From Paenarthrobacter sp. Z7-10 (GTDB lineage: Bacteria; Actinomycetota; Actinomycetes; Actinomycetales; Micrococcaceae): a stretch of DNA of 64,000 bases. This document shows positions 48,678 to 60,630 of this stretch, piece after piece; the first letter of the stretch is position 1, and each line of letters starts with the position of its first letter. The translations under genes were made by a program, and so were the position numbers. A model generated the notes under the pieces. It searched no databases, was not told where the DNA came from, and was given only the letters and a program-made list of their open reading frames with translations. The stretch is from positions 1-64,000 of the forward strand of contig NZ_JADPVH010000009.1 of assembly GCF_026932795.1 (NCBI RefSeq). Direction: 5' to 3'.

Positions 48678-50284
48678 ACCGCACCACCCTTGCTGGAACG
48701 GGCGTCGGCACCCGCGCCGAAGCCACCCTTGGCGGAACGGGCGTCGGCACCCGCGCCGAAGCCACCCTCGCCGGAACGGGCATCGGCACCTACGCCGAAA
48801 CCACCCTCGCCGGAACGGGCGTCGGCACCCGCGCCGAAGCCACCCTCGCCGGAACGGGCATCGGCACCTACGCCGAAACCACCCTCGCCGGAACGGGCAT
48901 CGGCACCTACGCCGAAACCACCCTCGCCGGAACGGACATCGGCACCCGCGCCGAAACCACCCTCGCCGGAGGTGCCGCCGTCGACGGCCGCCGAGGTGGG
49001 ACGGAACCGGATCCGATCGACCCTGCGCCCCTCCAGCCGCTCAACTTCAAGCGCTCCGCCGTCGATCGCCACCCTGTCCCCCACCGCGGGGATGCGCCCC
49101 AGTTCGGCCATGATGAAGCCGCCCAGCGTCTCATAGCTGGATTCGTCCGGCACGCGCAGCCCGGGAATCTGTTCCGTCACCTCGTCGGGGCGCATCAGGC
49201 CGGGGAAATACCAGTCCCCGGAGGCACTCTGCAGCACGCCGGGCTTGGTGCGGTCGTGCTCGTCCGAGACTTCCCCGACAATCTCCTCGACCAGATCCTC
49301 AAGTGTTGTCACACCGGCCGTTCCACCATATTCGTCCAGCACCACAGCCAGCTGGAGGTTGCCCTCGCGCAGTTCGGACAGCAGGGAGTCCAGGTGAATG
49401 GTTTCCGGCACCCGCAGCACATCGGTCATGATCGCGCCCGCCTGCAGCTGGGCCCGCTTGGCGGCCGGAACGGCAATCGCCTTTTTGACGTGCACCACGC
49501 CGCGGATGTCATCAGGGGATTCGCCGATCACCGGGAAGCGGGAAAAACCCGTCCGCCGGGCCGCTTCGACAATATCGGCTACGGATTGCTCGGACTCTAT
49601 GGTTTCCACCCGGATTCGGGGCGTCATGACGTCCGCGGCTGTCCGGGCTGAAAAACTCAGCGTTTTTGCCACAAAATTCGCGGTCCCCTTGTCCAAAGTT
49701 CCCATTGCGGCGGAGCGCCGCACCAGCGAGGCCAGCTCGGCCGGCGTGCGCGCTCCGGATATCTCCTCCTTGGCCTCCAAGCCGAACACGTTCAGTACCC
49801 GGTTGGAGAAGCCGTTGAGCACCACAATGGCGGGCTTGAAAATGGCCGTGAAGACCAGTTGCGGCCGAGCCACCGCCTTGCCGATCTCCAGCGACAGTGA
49901 AATGGCCATGTTTTTGGGGACCAGTTCACCCATCAGCATCGAGGCAAGCGTTGCCAGCACCATGGCGGCGGTCAGCGAGACAGGTTCAACCGCCGTCGCC
50001 GGCAGACCTGCGGCCCGCAACGGCGCAGCGAGCAGTCCACCCAGCGCCGGCTCCATCACAAAACCGGTGAGCAGCGTGGTCAGCGTGATGCCCAGCTGAC
50101 AGCTGGAAAGCTGAGTGGAAAGTGACTTCAGGCAGCGCAGCAGCGGTTCCGCACGGGTGTCACCGTTGCTGATGGCCCGCTGGACGGTGGATTGGTCAAG
50201 GGCAACGAGGGAAAATTCGACGGCGACGAAGAAGCCTGTCCCCAGGATCAGCAGCAGGCCCACGGCCAGCAAAATCCACTCCAT
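48674..50284 (-). CDS. CNNM/HlyC-type CBS protein with tandem-repeat tail
   Basis: A 536-residue protein: DUF21/CNNM membrane domain (about 1-190), CBS pair (about 205-335) and a CorC_HlyC transporter-associated domain (about 350-430), as in putative Mg2+/Co2+ efflux proteins. The last 97 residues are seven copies of a 13-residue unit of the type [13 protein letters not shown], outside any known domain. The ribosome site is weak; the stop codon of a possible small upstream frame shares one base with the ATG. Confidence 0.9.
48682..48969 (-). repeat. 39-bp tandem repeat at the 3' end of the CBS-protein gene
   Basis: Seven head-to-tail copies of a 39-base unit (plus-strand text beginning CCACCCTCGCCGGAACGGGC) with a few substitutions. 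The main variants alternate GTC/ATC and CCCGCG/CCTACG, giving FGAGAD or FGVGAD. The unit is a multiple of three, so the frame is kept. The mixed order of variants suggests expansion by slippage or recombination. Confidence 0.95.
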
Positions 50285-50581: not shown

Positions 50582-52912
50582 CTAGAGCCGGGTGTCGAAG
50601 GAACCACAGAAGACATTCTCGTTGTAGGTTCCGTGGAACTCCGACGTGCCTTGGATCTTCCCGATCGCAGCGCGGATGGCTTCCGGTGTCGCCGCATGGG
50701 CGTGGATCGCCGTTTTCACCATCGGCACGTCAATCAGGTGGTTTGGCTGATTGAGCGAGACGAAGACCGTGGGTACCTCGGTCACGTACCAGGGAATTTC
50801 CGCCGCCATCGGGCTGGACCACTTGATCCGGATGGCCGCCTCCTGGGCAAAGCCTTTGACGTTGGCAAAAACGAAGGCCGCGTCGTACTTCTGCGCATAG
50901 TCTCCGGTCGCTTCCTCGGAGATGACGGACAGGAAATTCACGTCTTTTTCGCCGTCGGCCTCGCGTTGTGCGGCGGTCCTGAACACATGGACCTCGAAAC
51001 CGGCGTTCTCCAACTCCTTGCGAACCACGTCCAAGTACGCCAGCGGATTCGACCGGGTGAAATCCGCGCCGCCCGAAATCCCGTACAGGCGGATGCGCGG
51101 ATGGGTCAGCGGAGTAATGGGCAGGATCCCGGCTGTGTCCTTAATCAGGGTCACGGTCTTGTCCGCGATCGCAGCGGCGACGGCACGGTGCTGTTCGCTG
51201 CCCACCAGGGCAAGCGCCTCGACCGGTGCGACGATGTCCGCGCGCGGGATTTTGTGCAGCCCCAGGGAAGCCTTCAGCGCCAGGATACGCTGCAGCGCGT
51301 CGTGGAGTCGCTCCTCCGTAATGACACCACTTGTGTAACCGTCCAGCATGTAGCCGAAGTCCTCCTCCGGGTTACGGAAGAACAAAAACATGTCGCAGCC
51401 GGCGGCAATGGTCGCCGGCACCAGGTCCTGTCGCTTCATGGCCTGGGTCAGGCCCACCATCTGCGACGCATCAGTGAGGATCAGCCCATTGAAGCCCAGC
51501 TCCCCGCGCAGCAGATCCTGCAGCAGTTCCGGGGCGAGCGTGGCCGGCATGACCTGCTGATCTTCCAGACCCGGGCGGAACCGCCGGGACAGTTCCGGCG
51601 CACCGATGTGGCCGATCATGATCGACTGGACGCCGTGTCCGATCATCTCCCGGTACACCTGCCCGTAGGTCCGGTTCCAGTCGTCGTAGCCCAAAGTGTT
51701 GTAGGAGGTGACCACATGCTGGTCACGCTCATCCACCCCGTCGCCTGGGAAGTGCTTTATGGCGCAAGCCATTCCCGACTCGCTGATCCCGTCGAAGTAC
51801 TCCTTGGCCCGCTCGATCACTAGCTCCGGATTATTGCCGAAGGACCGGGTGGAGATGACGGTGTTGCGCCAGTTGTAATGGATGTCCACAATCGGTGCGA
51901 ACGCCCAGTTGCAGCCGATCGCGGTGCATTCCACGCCAGCTACCCTGCCCATGTCACGGGCGATGCTCTTGTCCGGATGGGAGCCGGCCTGAAGATGTGT
52001 GCACACGAAGGTGCCGTCATCGCAGCTGCCGAAGCCGCCCATCTCCGGGTTGGAGGCCACCAGCAGCGGCACCTTAGTCCTGGACTGGGCGTAGCGGATG
52101 TGCTCCTGGACCGCGCTGGCGGGACCGGGCCGGTAGCGCATGCCGCCTACGTGGTACTTCTCCAGCACGGCGTCGAGGTACTCCGGGGAGAAGTCGTTGT
52201 TGTGGTTGATGAACAACTGGCCAATTTTCTCCGCCAGGCTCATTGAGGCAATCGTGGAGTGCACCCAGGCGACGGCGTCCTCGTCCAGGTTGAACGGGGC
52301 CGCCGTCAGGTCCACGCTGAACGGCGCCTGCCGCCCACGGGCGGGCGTGGCTGAAGCGGGCGCGGCCGCAAGGAGCGGGAGCGCCGCCAGACCGGCGACG
52401 GCCGCGGCCACCACCTGATCCACGGGTAACGAGATGTCGACGACGACGCCAGCCTCGTCGGAGCCGAGCGGTTCCAACGTGGCCAGCTGGGAATCCAAAA
52501 GGGCCGGCGGCATGAAGTGCCCGCTCCGGCCCTCCAGCCGGGCTTCCAGGACAGCCCTCGTCCCGTTCAGATGCAGGAAGGCAGTATCGGGAGCCTGGGC
52601 CCGGATGGCATTCCGGTAGCTGCGTTTGAGCGCAGAACAGGCGATCACCAGGCCGGCAGCTGAGGCACCGCCGACAGCGCTCGCACCATCGGTTACTCGA
52701 CCCCCGTCAGCCGCCGCCAGCTCGGCCCCGACCTGCGCAAGCCAGGGCCAGCGGTCCTCGTCATTCAGAGGGATGCCGGCTGCCATCTTGGCCACATTTT
52801 CCACCGGATGCAGCGCGTCCCCGTCGATGAATGGGACGCCCAGCTCTCGAGCCACCAGCGCGCCAATGGTGGTTTTTCCGCAGCCGGAAACACCCATCAC
52901 TACGACCTTCAC
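50582..52912 (-). CDS. gluconate kinase fused to family 3 glycoside hydrolase
   Basis: One uninterrupted frame of 776 residues. Residues 1-175 are a complete GntK-type gluconokinase: P-loop GVSGCGKTT (7-15), DGDALHP (30-36), [11 protein letters not shown] (48-58), [10 protein letters not shown] (91-100) and [12 protein letters not shown] (131-142), with a small Gly/Ala-rich insert near 69-87. An Ala/Pro-rich linker follows (175-198). Residues 199-776 are a GH3 enzyme with KHFPGDG (386-392) and the putative nucleophile Asp481 in [10 protein letters not shown], then the second GH3 domain. The substrate of the hydrolase is unknown. No true N-terminal signal exists, so the product is cytosolic. 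The GTG start overlaps the manD stop codon by four bases. Confidence 0.85.
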
Positions 52913-54138
52913 CAGTCATGCACCGTGCCGTCTGCCAGGCGATTGTAGGGCAGGTAGGCCTGCTGGTAGGGGAAGGAGGCGGCAGCCTCCTCGTTGAGCT
53001 CGATGCCCAGGCCCGGCTTGTCCCCCGGGTGCAGGAAGCCGTCGGCGAAGGTCATTGACTGCTCAAAGACTGTGTTTGTGGCTTCACTGTGCTCCATGTA
53101 CTCCTGGATGCCAAAGTTATGGATGGCAAGACCCAGATGGGTCTGCGCGGCCAAACCCACCGGCGAAACATCGGTAGGGCCATGGAAGCCGGACTTAATC
53201 TGATACTGCGCGGCGTAGTCCATCACCTTTTTCAGCGGCGAGATGCCGCCGAAGTGGGTGGAAGCAGCGCGCACGTAGTCGATCAGCTGTTCCCGGATCA
53301 GCGTCTGGAAGTCAAAGACGGTATTAAAGACCTCCCCCACGGCCAGCGGGGTGGTGGTGTGCTGGCGGACCAACCGGAACGCATCCTGGTTCTCCGCGGG
53401 AGTGCAGTCTTCCAGCCAGAACAAGTCATACGGTTCCAGCGATTTACCGAGCTTGGCCGCCTGGATGGGCGTCATCCGGTGGTGACCGTCGTGCAGCAGC
53501 GGAATTTCTGGGCCGAATTCATTGCGGACCGCCTCGAAGACGGTGGGCACATGCCGCAGGTAGGCGCGGGTATCCCAGTCCTCCTCCGCGGGCTGCGGCC
53601 CGCGGCCGGCCGGTTCATAATCGTAGCGCTCACCGGTGGCTTGGGCCTGCGCAGCGACGCCATACAGCGCCTTGATGCCCGGAACGGATGTCTGCACCCG
53701 AATGGACTTGTACCCCTCCTCCAGATGCTGGCGGATGGAGTCAAAGAGCTCCGGGATATCCCGGCCCGATGCATGCCCGTAGGTTTGCAAAGCCGTCCGG
53801 GAGGCGCCGCCGAGAAGCTGGTAGACGGGCATTCCCGCAACTTTGCCCTTGATGTCCCACAACGCCATATCCACGGCTGCAATGGCCGCCATTGTCACGG
53901 GTCCACGGCGCCAGTACGCGCTGCGGTACAGGAACTGCCAGGTGTCCTCGATGCGGTGTGGGTCCCGCTCAATGAGCAGCGGCACCACGTGCTCGGTGAG
54001 GTACGCCGCAACGGCGAGCTCACGGCCGTTCAGGGTGGCATCCCCCAGCCCAGTCACGCCCTCATCCGTGGTGATCTTGAGCGTGACAAAGTTCCGGGAG
54101 GGGCTGGTGACAATCACATCGGCGGCAATGATCTTCAT
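52909..54138 (-). CDS. manD: D-mannonate dehydratase (ManD/RspA family)
   Basis: A 409-residue enolase-superfamily enzyme that dehydrates mannonate (in some members gluconate) to 2-keto-3-deoxygluconate. The N-terminal capping domain is followed by the barrel with [20 protein letters not shown], the loop [31 protein letters not shown] and the late [10 protein letters not shown] and HGPTD motifs, as in ManD. The ATG at 54136-54138 has AAAGGA at good spacing. Context with UxaC and a fructuronate reductase supports mannonate as the substrate. Confidence 0.88.
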
Positions 54139-54189: not shown

Positions 54190-55678
54190 TTAGAGCATAT
54201 CTTTGGGACTGGGCACAGCGGTAGGCAGATCCTGCCGGGATGGATCGCCGGCACCGTGATCGTCGGCAGCGTAATCACCGTCAACGGGCGCTGACGCGGA
54301 CTTCGCAGCGCGGCGGGCGGTGATCTCGGCGACGATGTCCTTGTGACGAGCATCCGTCAACGGGTAGGCGAGCATCACAGCGATGGCCAGCAGTCCGAAA
54401 GCGGCAGGCAGCAGGCCTGCACCGGCGCGGATCCCCAATGTGGCTTCGGCAGTCTGGACCCCGGCGCCCGCCGCGTAGCCGCCCCAAGCCAAGGCATAGG
54501 CAGCCAGGGCGCCGCCCACCGCCTGCCCGGTCTTCCGCGTGAAGGAGAAGAGCGCGTAGGTGATGCCTTCAGTGCGCACATGAGTCTTCCACTCGCCGTA
54601 TTCAACGGTATCCGCCTCCAGCGCCCAGACAAGCATGTTGATCATCAGGATGCCAAACTGCGTGATGACCACACCGACGAAGGCCAACGGCACCACGTTG
54701 GCCGGGGCGAAAAAGACGATCAGACCGCCCGCCACCATGACCAGACCCGAGTAGACGTAGGTCTTCTTTTTGCCCAGCTTGCGGACAATCAACGACAGCA
54801 CACTACCCATGCCAAAGGTCAGGACGATGTTGACGATGGACAGCGCCGCGTACAACGGCAGCGCGTGCAGCACGTCGCGGAAGTAGTAAATCTGGACTGT
54901 GCCAACGGCGAGTTGCCCGGTCAGGAACAAGAAGGAGCTCACACAGAGCATCAGTAGCGGCTTGTTGCCCTTGAGCGTGGCCAGGCTCTGTTTGAAACTG
55001 ACCTTGGGCACCTCGCGGACCACCCGTTCCCTGGTGGAGAGCGCGGTGAACAGGTACAGCGCGGCGCCGATCACCACGAAGATGAGCGTCATGGTGGTGA
55101 ACAGCGGTTGAAGGTCAACCCCGTGCACCATCCGTGGTGCAATGAAGATCCCCAGAAGGGATCCGACGGTCACGGCGCCGATGGTGCGCGCACCGGCCAG
55201 CTTGGCCCGCTCGGAGGAGACCTGTGTCATGGCTCCGGCCAGCGAACCGTAGGGAATATTAACCATGCTGTACGCCAGCCCCAGCAACGTGTAGCTGACG
55301 TAGGCCCAGAGCAGCATACCCGTCTGGCCTATCTGCGGAATGGAAAAGCTGGCCGCGCTCAACAGCAGCAGAGGAACCGAGCCGAACATTATTGAAGGGA
55401 CGGAATTTACCGAATTTCCGGCTGTAGGTTTTGTCCACCATGCGGCCGGCGAAGAGGTCGGAGAACGCGTCGAAGATCCGCACCACCAGCAGCAACGTGC
55501 CCGCTGCTGCGGCGCTGATCCCGGCCACGTCCGTGTAGTACAGCAGCAGGAACATGGTCGCCGTGGTGAAGGCCAAGTTGTTGGCTGCGTCCCCCGCTCC
55601 ATAGCCGACGATACTGACCTTGGACAGCGGCTTGAGCGTCTCATTCATGGCCTGCCGGGAATCGTTTAGTGTCCTCAT
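54190..55678 (-). pseudogene. GPH-family sugar/uronide symporter, frameshifted
   Basis: A glycoside-pentoside-hexuronide:cation symporter in two frames. The first part (from ATG 55678, with AAAGGAG upstream) encodes helices 1-2 and the family motif [11 protein letters not shown] up to KFGKFRPF. The rest, helices 3-12 starting [11 protein letters not shown], continues in another frame to 54190. Removing one A:T pair at 55392-55393 restores KFRPF-IMFGS, the sequence expected for the family, so a single-base insertion is the cause. Intact, it would be about 495 residues. It is either a true inactivation or a sequence error; the rest is well preserved, which favours a recent event. Confidence 0.85.
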
Positions 55679-56016
55679 GGTGGGCTCCTTTACCCGTTGC
55701 TCATCATCGAGCAGGTTCTGCTGGTTCATCGTGTGCGGTGGCTGCTTCCGGACACTGCATGTGAGCTGACGTACTTAAGTAGAACAGATAAGGAAACAAT
55801 TGGCAACCGATTGCCAAACGCATGTAATCGCTTTCTTGCTCAATCTGCCCAGTGAAGCGGTCGATGGATGGGCAGAACGGTGATCTGTCCCACCCCTCAT
55901 GTCCATCAATGCGCAGAACCGTTCCAATCAGTCAACGAGCAGGACCGTTCCACCCAGTCAACGAAAGGGAATCCGCGTCGACCGTCACGGTCGAAATCCG
56001 CTCCAACTATCTGTAT
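55679..56016 (-). promoter_or_regulatory. promoter region of the symporter-manD-kinase/GH3 genes
   Basis: A gene-free stretch of 338 bases between the 13-bp repeat array and the symporter start. It holds the operator at 55800-55817 and an AT-rich part just downstream (55770-55800) where a promoter is likely. The text CCGTTCCA with CAGTCAACGA recurs twice at 55917-55970, a short imperfect duplication. No further gene is seen. Confidence 0.5.
55800..55817 (-). promoter_or_regulatory. LacI-type operator upstream of the symporter
   Basis: TTGGCAACCGATTGCCAA is an 18-bp palindrome with 7-bp arms, about 120 bases upstream of the symporter start. It matches the site upstream of uxaC at 16 of 18 positions, including a central CG, the usual form of LacI-family operators. 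Confidence 0.75.
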
Positions 56017-56172
56017 ACTGTGCCGTCTTACTGTGCCGTCTTACTGTGCCGTCTTACTGTGCCGTCTTACTGTGCCGTCTTACTGTGCCGTCTTACTGTG
56101 CCGTCTTACTGTGCCGTCTTACTGTGCCGTCTTACTGTGCCGTCTTACTGTGCCGTCTTACTGTGCCGTCGC
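56017..56172. repeat. 13-bp tandem repeat, 12 copies
   Basis: ACTGTGCCGTCTT is repeated head-to-tail from 56017 to 56159 in eleven identical copies, with a twelfth copy at 56160-56172 changed in its last two bases. The array joins the end of the fructuronate-reductase gene: the TAA stop codon (56158-56160) and the last residues ATAQ come from the repeat. The period of 13 is not a multiple of three. No spacers are present, so it is not a CRISPR. Confidence 0.98.
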
Positions 56173-57771
56173 GGCACTGATGCCAACCGCCATCGACTCC
56201 ACGAGGTCCAGCACTCTTTGGTCAGCGGCCAGTTCGGGATCCAGCAGCCCAAGCAGGGCACGGGCGTCCCGCCCGGCCGGCAGATTCAGGGCCTGGACAA
56301 GCTGCCCTGCGGCAGCGTCCTGAATCTGGCCACCCGTGGCGTGCCTTGCCCGAAGATAGGCCAGCCAGGAACCGATCATTCTGGCGGCCCCGGTCCCCGA
56401 TCTGCCCGCTGCCAGCTCCGCCTTCAGGACCGGGATGGCACGCATCCGCAGCTTGCTGGATCCGTCCATGCCAATCTGCGCCAGATAGTGCGCGATTCTG
56501 CCATTGCTGAACCGCCTCAGCAATGCTTCGCGGTACGCCGGGATATCCAAGCCGGCGTCGGGCAGATTCGCCTCTGCCTCGTCCCAGAACTCGGTCACCC
56601 ACGCCCGGCATTCAACGTCTGCCAGCGCCTGCGCCACTGTCTCGTGGCCGCGCAGGCTACCGGCGTACGCCAGGAGCGAGTGCGCCCCATTGAGGAGCCA
56701 GAGTTTGCGGTTTTCGAAAGGTTCAATATCGTCCACAAAGACCGCTCCGGCGGCACCCCAGTCCGGCCGGCCGGCCGGGAACTCTCCGCTCAGCACCCAA
56801 TTGGAAAACGGCTCCGTCACCACAGGCGAGCTGTCCTGAAAGCCGGTCTCCGCCGCAACCAGGCGGATCTCTTCGGCCGTTGTTCGCGGGGTGATCCGAT
56901 CCACGGAGGTGCCCACAAATGACACGTTTTCCTGGATCCAACGGGCCAGCGCCGGGTCCACCGCTAAGGCCAGACCATGAATGGCTGCCTCGACCGCGGT
57001 ACGGTTATTGGCCAGGTTATCGCAGGAGACAACCGCAATAGGACCTGCTTCGGAGCGCCGCCGGGCGGCCAGCGCGAACACCAGCCGGCCGGCCGCCGTC
57101 GTCGGCCCGCCTTCCGCTCCGTCTCCCGGTCCGCGTCCCAACCCGCCTTCCGCTCCGTCTCCCGGTCCGCGTCCCAACCCGCCTTCCGCTCCGTCTCCGG
57201 GTCTGTTTCCCGGCCCGAATTCCGCACCGTTTTCCGGTCCGTTTTCAGGCCCGGCTCCCGGCCCGAATTCCGCACCGCCGTCCGCGCTTCCGTCGACCCT
57301 TTGACCGTGGCCGGCTTCTGCCACAGAGGCAAATGCGACGCCGAGACGCTCAATATCCGTCCTCACTGCGGGATTTGCCATGTCCAGCGAGCCCTGTGCA
57401 TCGAGATTGTAGGCGGCTTCCGTGATGGTGAGAGTCACCAGCGCCGTGCTGGGTGCGGCGACCAGCTCCGCCAGCCGGGTGACGTCGGCGCCGTCGTGGG
57501 CCTGAACAATGCTGGCGATGACTTCGAAGGTGTCGCCGTCGTCAGCCCTTTCGATGAGGGTGTAAAGCCCGTCTTGGTCAGCCAGCGCCACGGCGGCGTC
57601 AGGACGCCTTCCGGTAAAGGCGGCAATACCCCATTGCCCGGAAGGGTCCGCGCGCTGGGTGTACCAGGCCTGGTGCGCCCGGTGGAAGGCTCCTAGACCG
57701 AGGTGCACGATCCGCACCGGCGCCGCGGGGCGGGTATCAAAGGTTGCCCGGCTCAACTGCGGCTGATTCAT
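56158..57771 (-). CDS. uxuB: mannitol dehydrogenase family protein, probable fructuronate reductase
   Basis: A 537-residue long-chain polyol dehydrogenase. The N-terminal RIVHLGLGAFHRAHQAWY is the NAD site; SCDNLANN, SFVGTSVDRITP and the catalytic-type region LLNGAHSLLAYAG are canonical for the mannitol dehydrogenase/UxuB family. Next to uxaC and manD, reduction of fructuronate to mannonate is the best guess; tagaturonate or mannitol are alternatives. An insert at about residues 157-222, rich in Gly, Pro, Glu and Asp with 12-residue repeats, interrupts the fold where homologues have a short loop. The ATG overlaps the uxaC stop codon by four bases, and the C-terminus ends in the 13-bp repeat. 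Confidence 0.87.
   Translation of the reverse strand: MNQPQLSRATFDTRPAAPVRIVHLGLGAFHRAHQAWYTQRADPSGQWGIAAFTGRRPDAAVALADQDGLYTLIERADDGDTFEVIASIVQAHDGADVTRLAELVAAPSTALVTLTITEAAYNLDAQGSLDMANPAVRTDIERLGVAFASVAEAGHGQRVDGSADGGAEFGPGAGPENGPENGAEFGPGNRPGDGAEGGLGRGPGDGAEGGLGRGPGDGAEGGPTTAAGRLVFALAARRRSEAGPIAVVSCDNLANNRTAVEAAIHGLALAVDPALARWIQENVSFVGTSVDRITPRTTAEEIRLVAAETGFQDSSPVVTEPFSNWVLSGEFPAGRPDWGAAGAVFVDDIEPFENRKLWLLNGAHSLLAYAGSLRGHETVAQALADVECRAWVTEFWDEAEANLPDAGLDIPAYREALLRRFSNGRIAHYLAQIGMDGSSKLRMRAIPVLKAELAAGRSGTGAARMIGSWLAYLRARHATGGQIQDAAAGQLVQALNLPAGRDARALLGLLDPELAADQRVLDLVESMAVGISAATAQ
57111..57218 (-). repeat. 36-bp tandem repeat within uxuB
   Basis: Two identical 36-base units at 57111-57146 and 57147-57182 (plus-strand text beginning CTTCCGCTCCGTCTCCCGGT) and a diverged third at 57183-57218. 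They encode the GGLGRGPGDGAE-type units of the insert. Similar GAEFGPG and GPENG segments follow to about 57290. Confidence 0.9.
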
Positions 57772-59264
57772 AGTTTGAAGGCCCTCCGCGGCGCCGCGTC
57801 GACGATGTCGACAATAATGTCGGCGGCCCGGGTCTCGGAGATCCGGCGCTCGGCAACCAGCCGGGCCAGGAAAGAGGCTTCGATCCGCCGGGAGGTGTTG
57901 TGCCGGGCCGGAATGGAGCAAAAGGCCCGGGTATCGTCGATGAACCCGGAGGACCGGGAGAAGCCAGCCGTCTCGGTGACCGCGGAGCGGAAGCGCAACA
58001 TGGCATCCGGGGCATCAAGGAACCACCAGGGCGCGCCAATGTAGACCGCGGGGTAAAAGCCCGCCAGCGGCGCGATCTCCCGGGAAAATACCGTTTCGTC
58101 CACGGTAAAGGGGATGAAGTGGAAGCCCGGAACCGTGCCGAAGTCCTCCAGCAGGGGCCGGAGCCCTTCGGTGAAGCTGACTGGAAAGGGGATGTCATGC
58201 CCCGTATCTGCGCCGAACGATTCAAAGGTGGGGCGGTGGTGGTTGCGGAAAACACCGGGATGCAAAGTCATCACCAGTCCGTCCGCCACCGACATCCGCG
58301 CCATCTGATACATCATGTGCGCTTCAAATGCATCCGCATCCTCTGCGGTTGCGTCGCCTCGCCGGGCCTTATCGAACAGGGCCTGGGCCTGCTCTGCCGG
58401 CAGTTTCAGAGTGCCGGCGGTCCGGGATCCATGATCGGCGGAAACGGCGCCATGATTGACAAAGTACTGGCGCCGGTTTTCCAGTGCCTGCAGGTAGCCG
58501 GGATAACCGCTGTGGCCATCTCCAGCCACGGAGATCAGGCGTTCCACCCGCTCCGCCCAGCCGGCCGCATGAAACTTAATGTAAGCATCCGGTCGGAAGG
58601 TTGGCAGGACCCGACCCGGAAAGGTTGGGTCCGCTGCCAGGGCAGCGTGGGCCGACAGGTCGTCCAGCGGGTCGTCGGTGGTGGCCAGCACCTCAATGTT
58701 GAAGTCGCTGAACAGCTTCCGTGGACGGAAGTCCGGCTCCCGCAGCCGGGCACTGAGCTGGTCAAAGAGCCCGTCCGCAACGCCGTCGTCCGCGGCCGGC
58801 GTGATGGCATCGAGGGCGGAAATGTCCAATCGGAAAACATGTTCAAATTCCTGCCGGAACCAATAGCCCGACGCCGTACCCTCGAACAACGGCCATGCTT
58901 TGACGAACGCCCGCCAGACATCGCGGCCGGCTCGGGCCGCGTCAATTCCGGCACCGGCTATCGCTCCGGCTCCAGTTCCGGCGGCAGCAGGTTCAGGCAG
59001 GGACGTTGGGTTTCGGACGCCGAGACTGTGCAGTGGAATTCCGCTGGCGTGAATCACCCTCGTGACGTAGTGATCCGGAGTCACCAGCAGCGTTGCGGGA
59101 TCCGGAAAGGGAGTATTCCTCAGGATCATGGCCGCGTCCACATGTCCATGTGGCGAAAGGATGGGCAGTTGTTCCACCAGAGCCAACAGACGCCGGGCAA
59201 TGGCCCGGGTGCCTGGATCGGCCGGCAGCAGCCGGTCTGGTTCGGCGGCAATGTTCTCTGACAT
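57768..59264 (-). CDS. uxaC: glucuronate isomerase
   Basis: A 498-residue uronate isomerase of the amidohydrolase superfamily that converts glucuronate to fructuronate (and galacturonate to tagaturonate). The metal motif reads SPHGHVDAA (about residue 37), with ATTDDPLDDL near 194, FRPDAY near 224 and the late ARHNTSRRIEASFLA. A 20-residue Ala/Gly-rich stretch near 90-110 is a small insert. It is the first structural gene after the operator at 59293. Confidence 0.94.
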   Translation of the reverse strand: MSENIAAEPDRLLPADPGTRAIARRLLALVEQLPILSPHGHVDAAMILRNTPFPDPATLLVTPDHYVTRVIHASGIPLHSLGVRNPTSLPEPAAAGTGAGAIAGAGIDAARAGRDVWRAFVKAWPLFEGTASGYWFRQEFEHVFRLDISALDAITPAADDGVADGLFDQLSARLREPDFRPRKLFSDFNIEVLATTDDPLDDLSAHAALAADPTFPGRVLPTFRPDAYIKFHAAGWAERVERLISVAGDGHSGYPGYLQALENRRQYFVNHGAVSADHGSRTAGTLKLPAEQAQALFDKARRGDATAEDADAFEAHMMYQMARMSVADGLVMTLHPGVFRNHHRPTFESFGADTGHDIPFPVSFTEGLRPLLEDFGTVPGFHFIPFTVDETVFSREIAPLAGFYPAVYIGAPWWFLDAPDAMLRFRSAVTETAGFSRSSGFIDDTRAFCSIPARHNTSRRIEASFLARLVAERRISETRAADIIVDIVDAAPRRAFKL

Positions 59265-59356: not shown

Positions 59357-60418
59357 TCAAACCGAAGGTGCGGGCCCGCTGGACCCTCGAATCACCAATT
59401 CGGTGGACAACCCTCCCCGGGGCGGCGGCGGCGAGGTTCCAGCCAAGTCGGCAAGGATCAGGGCGAGCGACGCCGCACCGGCGTCGCGCAGTGGCGACTT
59501 GATCGTCGACAGTGGCGGAGTGGTGAAATCAGAACCAAAGATATTGTCAAAGCCCACAATGCTGACATCGCCGGGAACCTGCACGCCGGCCAGCTGCAAC
59601 TCCCGCATCAGTCCGATAGCCATCAAGTCGTTGTAGCAAATCACGGCCGTGGCACCGCCGGACCGAACCGATGCTGCGGCCTGTCGGCCGCCTTCCACGG
59701 TCGGATTACCGGAACTGATTTTTTCCACTTCCAGTGAGGACCACTGACAGCGTTCACGGATGCTTTCCCAACGGTGTCCGGACATCCATGATCGTTCCGG
59801 TCCGGCAACATAGGCCAGCTTCTTGTGGCCCAGCCCTGCCAAATGCCTGACCGCTTCGCTGACTCCGGTCTGGATTTCCGCGACCACACTGTGCACATCG
59901 CGCACCGAGCGGTTAAGGACCACCACAGGTTTCCTGCCGGCCAGTTCCTGGATCTGGTCATCCGACAGCCGTGGGCTGGCCAGGATGATCCCATCCACGG
60001 TGCTGATGATCCGCTTCGCAGCCAACAGTTCCGTCTCCGCTGATTCCGCCGACTCGGCCAGCAGCAGCGTGTAGTTCCGTTCCGACGCGGCTGCTTCGGC
60101 CCCACGGATGACGTCGAAATACATTGGGTTGGTGATGTCGGAGACGATCAGGCCAACCGTATTGGTCCTGCCGGTGGGAAGCGCACGGGCGAAGGTATTC
60201 ACCTGGTAGTTCAGCTCGGCCGCCGCGTCCTCGATTTTCTTCTGCGTCTTAACACTGACGCGGCCGGGATTGCTCAACGCCCGCGACACAGTGGATGCGT
60301 TCACACCGGCGGCCTTGGCAATGTCATAGATGGTTGCCGGTGCTCCGGACGGCCGGCTCCGGCCCACGTGCGCGGCTTCGGCACCGGGCTCAGCGTGCTG
60401 TGGTGCATTCTGGCTCAC
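59357..60418 (-). CDS. LacI-family transcriptional regulator
   Basis: A 353-residue repressor. A disordered first 27 residues are followed by the helix-turn-helix and hinge TIYDIAKAAGVNASTVSRAL (about 29-48), and then the periplasmic-binding-like ligand domain with TNTVGLIVSDITNPMYF. I start at the GTG at 60416-60418, which has AAAGAGG at good spacing; the frame is open another 70 codons upstream but without likeness to the family. It probably binds the 18-bp operators at 59293, 55800 and perhaps 60560, and releases them in the presence of a uronate or a pathway intermediate. Confidence 0.92.
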   Translation of the reverse strand: MSQNAPQHAEPGAEAAHVGRSRPSGAPATIYDIAKAAGVNASTVSRALSNPGRVSVKTQKKIEDAAAELNYQVNTFARALPTGRTNTVGLIVSDITNPMYFDVIRGAEAAASERNYTLLLAESAESAETELLAAKRIISTVDGIILASPRLSDDQIQELAGRKPVVVLNRSVRDVHSVVAEIQTGVSEAVRHLAGLGHKKLAYVAGPERSWMSGHRWESIRERCQWSSLEVEKISSGNPTVEGGRQAAASVRSGGATAVICYNDLMAIGLMRELQLAGVQVPGDVSIVGFDNIFGSDFTTPPLSTIKSPLRDAGAASLALILADLAGTSPPPPRGGLSTELVIRGSSGPAPSV

Positions 60419-60559
60419 GCCAACCTCTTTCCCTTGGGACGGTTGCACCGCCGTGCTCCGGCGAAGTACCCCCGAACCGGTCTTATCTCCACCCTGGATT
60501 CCGGGGCTCGGATGATTCCGGGACTCGGGCAATTCAATTTTTTGGCTCCACGGTCCGGC

Positions 60560-60577
60560 TTTGCAGCCGGTTGCCAG
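60560..60577 (-). promoter_or_regulatory. weaker operator-like site upstream of lacI
   Basis: TTTGCAGCCGGTTGCCAG agrees with the uxaC operator at 14 of 18 positions, with the whole right half CCGGTTGCCA intact. It lies about 140 bases upstream of the lacI start and could mediate autoregulation. Confidence 0.45.
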
Positions 60578-60630
60578 CATAACCCAGTTGGGCGCCACTC
60601 CCCTCCCAACTTCCAGCCCACGGCCCACAG

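Follow-up and report, generated by a model that had tools for sequence, protein, structure and literature searches.

Organisation of the fused gene

The window, that is the whole stretch of DNA analysed, consists of 64,000 nt of Paenarthrobacter sp. Z7-10 (contig NZ_JADPVH010000009.1), and all coordinates refer to it. It contains a 776-codon open reading frame with zero stops between a GntK-type kinase domain and a glycoside hydrolase family 3 (GH3) domain. The features of this gene are as follows.

50582-52912, minus strand: fused kinase-GH3 gene, 776 codons, with a GTG start that overlaps the ManD stop codon (GTGA)
52385-52912, minus strand: GntK/IdnK-type kinase domain, residues 1-176 (TIGR01313; PDB 3t61, 4eun and 1knq; fold match over residues 1-186)
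52871-52894, minus strand: P-loop GVSGCGKT, residues 7-14 (row alignment)
52658-52702, minus strand: 15-residue Gly/Ala/Ser-rich loop insert, residues 71-85 (row alignment and pLDDT)
52316-52384, minus strand: interdomain linker, about residues 177-199 (low pLDDT; variable among relatives)
50585-52315, minus strand: GH3 domain, BglP-like, residues 200-776 (PF00933; 5vqd, E 9e-121; 5vqe, Z 37.7)
51716-51724, minus strand: Asp397-Gln-His399, predicted His/Asp acid-base dyad (5vqd alignment and relatives)
51470-51472, minus strand: Asp481, predicted GH3 nucleophile (alignment to 5vqd, TDA motif)

The initial annotation had described a complete GntK kinase and a complete GH3 enzyme in one frame, and this was borne out by domain models that scored above their cut-offs in both halves. 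Residues 3-172 matched the NCBIfam model TIGR01313 (GntK) with 179 bits against a cut-off of 113.75, which places the kinase in the GntK/IdnK type, and residues 226-545 matched Pfam PF00933, the model for the N-terminal domain of GH3, with 189 bits against a cut-off of 27, which places the second half in GH3. The AlphaFold model of the fused protein, computed from 51 related rows, is of moderate confidence (mean pLDDT 71.6, pTM 0.60). In structure comparisons its residues 1-186 aligned to the GntK-type kinases 4eun (Z 25.3) and 3t61 (Z 23.4), and residues 199-771 aligned to the GH3 enzyme BglX/BglP (5vqe) over 512 residues.

The narrower equivalog models scored below their cut-offs for the kinase half (NF008583, 134.6 of 265 bits; NF007336, 123.3 of 304 bits). 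No PfkB model of Pfam or NCBIfam matched it, so it lies outside the PfkB-family KdgK enzymes. The P-loop has one 11-residue form in 61 of 82 fused rows, a close variant in 20 and a gap in one. The P-loop and the substrate motifs are intact, as in canonical gluconokinases, and therefore the sequence gives no pointer to 2-keto-3-deoxygluconate (KDG), and gluconate stays a possible substrate. At least 97% of the 82 rows have an alignment gap in place of the loop insert at residues 71-85, and pLDDT is below 50 at residues 70-85.

The hexuronate operon

The fused gene is the last gene of an operon, and the genes upstream of it are listed below.

52909-54138, minus strand: D-mannonate dehydratase ManD, directly upstream (NF043051, 695.7 bits, cut-off 550)
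54190-55729, minus strand: gene for a GPH-type glucuronide symporter, interrupted by a frameshift near 55394-55398 (ORF list, NCBIfam, alignment)
56158-57771, minus strand: UxuB-like (fructuronate-reductase-like) mannitol dehydrogenase with a repetitive insert (Pfam, over cut-off)
57768-59264, minus strand: glucuronate isomerase UxaC (NF002794, 531 bits, cut-off 387)
59357-60628, minus strand: LacI-family regulator, upstream of the operon (PF00356, PF13377)

A hexuronate cluster under a LacI-type regulator had been proposed, and it is supported by the presence of UxaC, the UxuB-like enzyme, the symporter and ManD on the same strand with the LacI gene upstream. No NCBIfam model scored above its cut-off for the UxuB-like gene. 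The glucuronate pathway up to KDPG runs through UxaC, a UxuB-like enzyme, ManD and a kinase, which is the gene order found here. Two genes for KDPG-type aldolases are located elsewhere in the same genome.

Several irregularities were observed around the operon. In the symporter gene, residues 4-81 of a relative match one frame (88%) and residues 80-437 match another (62%); this frameshift could be either real or an assembly error. The UxuB-like gene carries an insert at 57103-57277 built of 12-, 36- and 48-bp units, which is absent from the one relative aligned, and at its 3' end (56016-56170) a 13-bp unit is repeated 11.9 times with 100% match. Moreover, a 39-bp unit is repeated 7.4 times at 48683-48970, where it encodes the Gly-rich tail of a CNNM/CorC-type protein. 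Together with the inserts in the kinase and UxuB-like genes, this tail makes the genome seem prone to low-complexity insertions.

Conservation of the fusion

Species genomes were scanned for the GH3 half, and the best 80 of 111 loci were kept, most of them from Micrococcaceae. The kinase and the GH3 domain are fused in one frame in 66 of these 80 loci, and the stretch from the kinase through the GH3 end is fully open in 63 of the 66 (all except L051, L080 and L082). Both halves are present and unfused in six loci, and the kinase is absent from eight. Among the six, L073 is unfused through a frameshift inside the kinase, and L075-L079 have two genes, which are separated by stops in L077-L079 and lie in different frames in L075 and L076. 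A second GntK-like gene lies just 3' of the unfused GH3 in L075, L077 and L078. The L076 record is named Sporosarcina beigongshangi; it holds an Arthrobacter-like operon and is likely misnamed or contaminated.

When the full profile was searched across the order, 17 of 396 genomes matched. Full-length matches numbered six, all in the family of the window. The others first align at model positions 146-167, close to the beginning of GH3, apart from one match (G218) that starts at position 77 and runs through three stops. At a threshold of 1e-100 the GH3 subfamily was found in one of 396 genomes of the phylum sample, namely the window's own.

The same-frame rows of this survey and of the ManD survey described below, which cover overlapping genome sets, were merged into 82 fused rows including duplicates; the two surveys were not summed otherwise. 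These rows are the basis of the linker, motif and dN/dS figures. The median dN/dS for the two kinase groups was 0.125 and 0.156 in the kinase and 0.103 and 0.067 in GH3. Purifying selection acts on both domains, and the fused gene is a real, conserved two-domain gene built from known families.

A recent loss of the kinase stop codon, or a sequencing error, confined to the window's genome is very improbable: the neighbouring symporter frameshift does indicate that small errors or decay may occur in this contig, and stops do lie between the domains in L077-L079 and in G003 (a TAG after the kinase), but relatives share the fusion across many assemblies, including the six full-model matches of one family, which excludes a stop loss or missed base. 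Two-gene relatives with a stop between the domains, which the initial annotation had named as counter-evidence, thus do exist; they are a minority, and the window itself has no sign of error. In G003, which belongs to the same genus (loci L008 and L122), stops were found in ManD, in the kinase and in GH3, which suggests that this operon has decayed, unless the assembly is at fault. An earlier reading of G003 as decay of GH3 behind an intact kinase was withdrawn, since the kinase stretch also holds a stop.

The linker

The linker had been placed at about residues 175-198 and called Ala/Pro-rich. Its position agrees with the model, in which pLDDT is below 50 at residues 181-196, whereas its composition is Ala/Gly-rich: over 67 linkers, Ala makes up 30%, Gly 18% and Pro 7%. 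Between fixed points the linker spans 48-162 nt, with 22 different lengths among the 82 fused rows. This spread shows only that many lengths are tolerated, because the fused rows are in frame by definition. The differences between linkers peak at codon position 3 (61 vs 28 and 40; 14 disjoint pairs, p 0.0015). Their G+C content hardly differs among the codon positions (0.786, 0.768 and 0.752) and shows no coding pattern; stops are also rare in the other two frames (32 of 2772 codons). An open linker alone is therefore weak evidence.

The two halves are presumably translated as one chain. An in-frame start with a 5-of-6 match to a ribosome site was observed inside the linker of ten fused genes of one kinase group (L037, L057, L061, L062, L066, L069, L074, L090, L193 and L208), and therefore some GH3 could arise separately. 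The kinase-less GH3 of Arthrobacter agilis (L067) retains a linker-like N-terminal stretch, which suggests that it lost its kinase half.

Phylogeny and exchange of the kinase half

Phylogenetic trees were reconstructed from stop-free kinases of more than 140 residues and GH3 domains of more than 500 residues, with identical rows used once (119 and 84 rows, respectively). In the kinase tree, the 117 kinases of these loci are separate from the other two GntK proteins of the window's genome. The fused kinases form two groups of 54 and 18 rows, and unfused kinases lie between the two. A single clade of the 72 fused kinases alone was rejected (p-AU 0.00015). A single clade extended to take in nine unfused kinases that perhaps were split later was not rejected (p-AU 0.113); the nine are the five split ones together with L201, L183, L190 and L187, a group that was chosen after inspection of the tree. 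The claim that several independent fusions had occurred was withdrawn, since this wider clade survives; the fusion may have formed a single time or repeatedly.

At least five changes of kinase type are needed on the GH3 tree, two of them forced by strongly supported branches. In L028 and L044, the ManD and GH3 flanks are mostly 84-97% identical, whereas the kinase between them is only 56-73% identical. These alike flanks around a divergent kinase, together with the type changes on the GH3 tree, show that exchange of the kinase half has taken place. The unfused L075-L079 branch early in the GH3 tree, where the order of the early branches is poorly supported. One genome of the window's own genus (G001, locus L010) has GH3 alone, beginning at the position that corresponds to the overlap of the kinase start with ManD in the window.

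Kinases following ManD

The ManD survey was made with no selection for GH3. Among 245 genomes of the family 89 matched, and 80 loci were examined, one per genome; the nine matching genomes left out include the window's own, G001 and G003. ManD is followed by GntK alone in 41 of the 80 loci, by a fused GntK-GH3 in 14, by both unfused in two, and by neither in 23. The kinase thus follows ManD in 57 loci, and in the 41 there is no downstream match to the window's GH3. In 33 of these 41, UxaC or UxuB is also present in the stretch examined. Because the kinase follows ManD so often without this GH3, it probably has a job of its own.

Phosphorylation of KDG is the likeliest such job, because GntK and the PfkB-type KDG kinase are nearly exclusive: the latter lies nearby in one of the 57 loci with GntK and in eight of the 23 without it (Fisher p 0.00012, uncorrected for kinship). 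In the other 15 of the 23 loci lacking GntK, no KdgK was found within the stretch examined either. On the simplest interpretation, the KDG-kinase step of these operons is carried out by GntK, and GH3 joined an operon in which GntK was already present. In Arthrobacter relatives the protein may fill a gap in glucuronate breakdown at the kinase step. The window's genome also encodes, elsewhere, a KdgK-like PfkB protein (L096) that is 40-42% identical to the KdgK of the neighbours, and therefore a KDG role of the fused kinase is not required there. No assignment of KDG kinase activity to the GntK family was found in the literature read.

The GH3 half and its phosphorylase relatives

The best solved relative of the GH3 half is the beta-glucoside phosphorylase 5vqd, which aligns over nearly the whole domain; the second best, a lipoprotein hexosaminidase, has an E value of 4e-41. 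The fold ranking is similar, with 5vqe first (Z 37.7) and the best entry outside BglP at 33.1. In place of Glu, the GH3 half has the His/Asp dyad D397-Q-H399, aligned with that of 5vqd. The D-Q-H motif is common to 5vqd and to 17 of the 17 relatives listed, and both it and Asp481 are invariant in 51 rows. The initial annotation had called this half a GH3 hydrolase; the family membership stands, and the plain hydrolase gives way to a beta-glucoside phosphorylase as the nearest relative in both sequence and fold. According to the available part of one review, a His/Asp dyad of this kind occurs in some GH3 enzymes that are retaining phosphorylases and form beta-sugar 1-phosphates, and the characterised GH3 phosphorylases number only two (PMC8950772).

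Five plasmid homologues were examined. The gene pgmB is annotated near two of them (adjacent in Carnobacterium and about 3 kb off in Melissococcus); within the stretch examined it was not found near those of Lactiplantibacillus, Enterococcus innesii and Agrobacterium. The product of pgmB is a mutase for beta-glucose 1-phosphate. No beta-phosphoglucomutase (bPGM) above the family cut-off was found in the window's genome (best 68.6 of 189.4 bits), so no dedicated mutase would be available there for beta-glucose 1-phosphate. The neighbours of the GH3-only copies include oxidoreductases and sugar isomerases, and their family labels reveal no specific function.

In one genus of another family of the same order (genus g20, family f9), bPGM is fused N-terminally to the same GH3 subfamily. 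Two of these fusions are:

L244, 2815-5190, plus strand: bPGM-GH3 fusion (bPGM model and GH3 match)
L245, 3452-5839, minus strand: bPGM-GH3 fusion (bPGM model and GH3 match)

Twelve of the 44 genomes of this genus matched, ten of them across the whole bPGM-GH3 in a single frame with zero stops; the bPGM model was scored in two of these ten (L244 and L245), where it gave 197.8 bits and 212.7 bits, respectively, at an equivalog cut-off of 189.4. Their GH3 domains are 40-43% identical to that of the window. Since bPGM acts on the expected product of a retaining beta-glucoside phosphorylase, phosphorolysis gains guilt-by-fusion evidence. That one GH3 subfamily is joined to bPGM in genus g20 and to GntK-type kinases in Micrococcaceae gives a functional hint for a little-studied GH3 group.

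In the remaining two genomes (G595 and G214) the matches cover GH3 alone. The open frame preceding GH3 in these genomes was considered as a possible bPGM and rejected; in G595 the bPGM adjoins GH3 in a different frame. Apparent larger fusions in G571 and G587 (1239 and 1236 codons) were also discarded, as the extra 439 upstream codons were judged by eye to be chance open frame in high-GC DNA.

Proposed function and alternatives

The best explanation, which we hold with moderate confidence, is that this gene encodes a genuine bifunctional enzyme, the last of a hexuronate operon, which combines a KDG kinase with beta-glycoside phosphorolysis. The N-terminal kinase most likely phosphorylates the KDG made by ManD, and the product KDPG would pass to an aldolase encoded elsewhere; the main alternative substrate is gluconate. 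The most likely role of the GH3 domain is the cytoplasmic cleavage of an imported beta-glycoside through a retaining mechanism, in which Asp481 is the predicted nucleophile and His399/Asp397 the predicted acid-base dyad. The attacking group is probably phosphate, as in the nearest solved relative. The fusion would then couple two steps of one pathway, consecutive or not. A broader and more tentative idea is that the N-terminal slot of this GH3 subfamily takes enzymes that handle its products, such as bPGM and the exchanged GntK, and that the half found in Micrococcaceae is a GntK-family KDG kinase. One protein would then both cleave an imported glycoside and perform the kinase step of its operon.

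The fusion might instead be a neutral by-product of operon compaction with independent halves, a reading that is possible but doubtful. It is consistent with a kinase half that can be lost (L010 and L067 are kinase-less among fused relatives in the GH3 tree) and with a long, variable linker that is predicted to be disordered. However, the fusion has been kept in 66 of 80 loci, even after exchange of the kinase half.

Consecutive action of both halves on one substrate, the release followed by phosphorylation that was originally suggested, is rather unlikely. Here GH3 would phosphorolyse a beta-glucosyl sugar acid (cellobionate-like), and the kinase would phosphorylate the released gluconate. 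The kinase motifs are those of gluconokinases, the slot in genus g20 is occupied by bPGM, an enzyme for the product expected of GH3, and the cellobionic acid route, in the available parts of its descriptions, likewise pairs a phosphorylase (GH94) with a gluconokinase (PMC4537572, PMC8950772). Against this, 41 of the 80 ManD loci have the kinase after ManD but no match to this GH3, the operon turns glucuronate into KDG rather than gluconate, and a GH3-only member (L010) lies in the same kind of operon.

It is less likely still that the GH3 half is a beta-glucuronidase that replaces the GH2 enzyme UidA and feeds UxaC, with the kinase as the last step. The operon does hold a GPH symporter and UxaC, and no UidA orthologue was found in the window's genome, where the sole match is 31% identical in a frame of 1081 aa. 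A GH3 beta-glucuronidase, SN243, also exists (PMC9730296, available part). But SN243 (7qea) is only 19% identical to the GH3 half, UidA co-occurs with the fusion in eight mapped fused loci (two from one strain), and residue 291, which is Arg in 5vqd, is an invariant Met here, so that a positive charge is removed.

Comparison with known systems

The protein represents a new bifunctional architecture built from known families. No description of a kinase-GH3 fusion, or of such a role of the kinase, was found in the literature searched. The available part of one report lists an Arthrobacter strain with a GH3 gene of 2313 nt near a GH2 beta-glucuronidase and makes no mention there of a kinase half (PMC8171050); from its length and place, this gene is probably the same fusion.

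The kinase half shares the P-loop, substrate motifs, fold and domain length of the GntK/IdnK gluconokinases (TIGR01313; 3T61, 4EUN, 1KNQ). It differs from them as the N-terminal half of a longer protein that follows ManD, and it is also distinct in the kinase tree from the other GntK copies of its own genome. The GH3 half shares the common GH3 fold with SN243 (PDB 7QE1, 7QEA), which is a hydrolase of pNP-beta-glucuronide according to the available part of its description (PMC9730296). The GH94 cellobionic acid pathway, as far as the available text describes it, also applies a phosphorylase and a gluconokinase to one disaccharide acid; there, however, the two are separate proteins, and the glycoside family is another one (PMC4537572, PMC8950772). 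The bPGM-GH3 proteins of genus g20 have the same GH3 subfamily with a partner at the same N-terminal end, whereas that partner is a mutase and not a kinase. A further close system is BglP/BglX (5VQD, 5VQE), to which nearly the whole GH3 half aligns with about 36% identity and with the D-Q-H dyad and the nucleophile motif in common; unlike BglP/BglX, the protein of the window has Met for Arg at residue 291, an N-terminal kinase and a place in a hexuronate operon.
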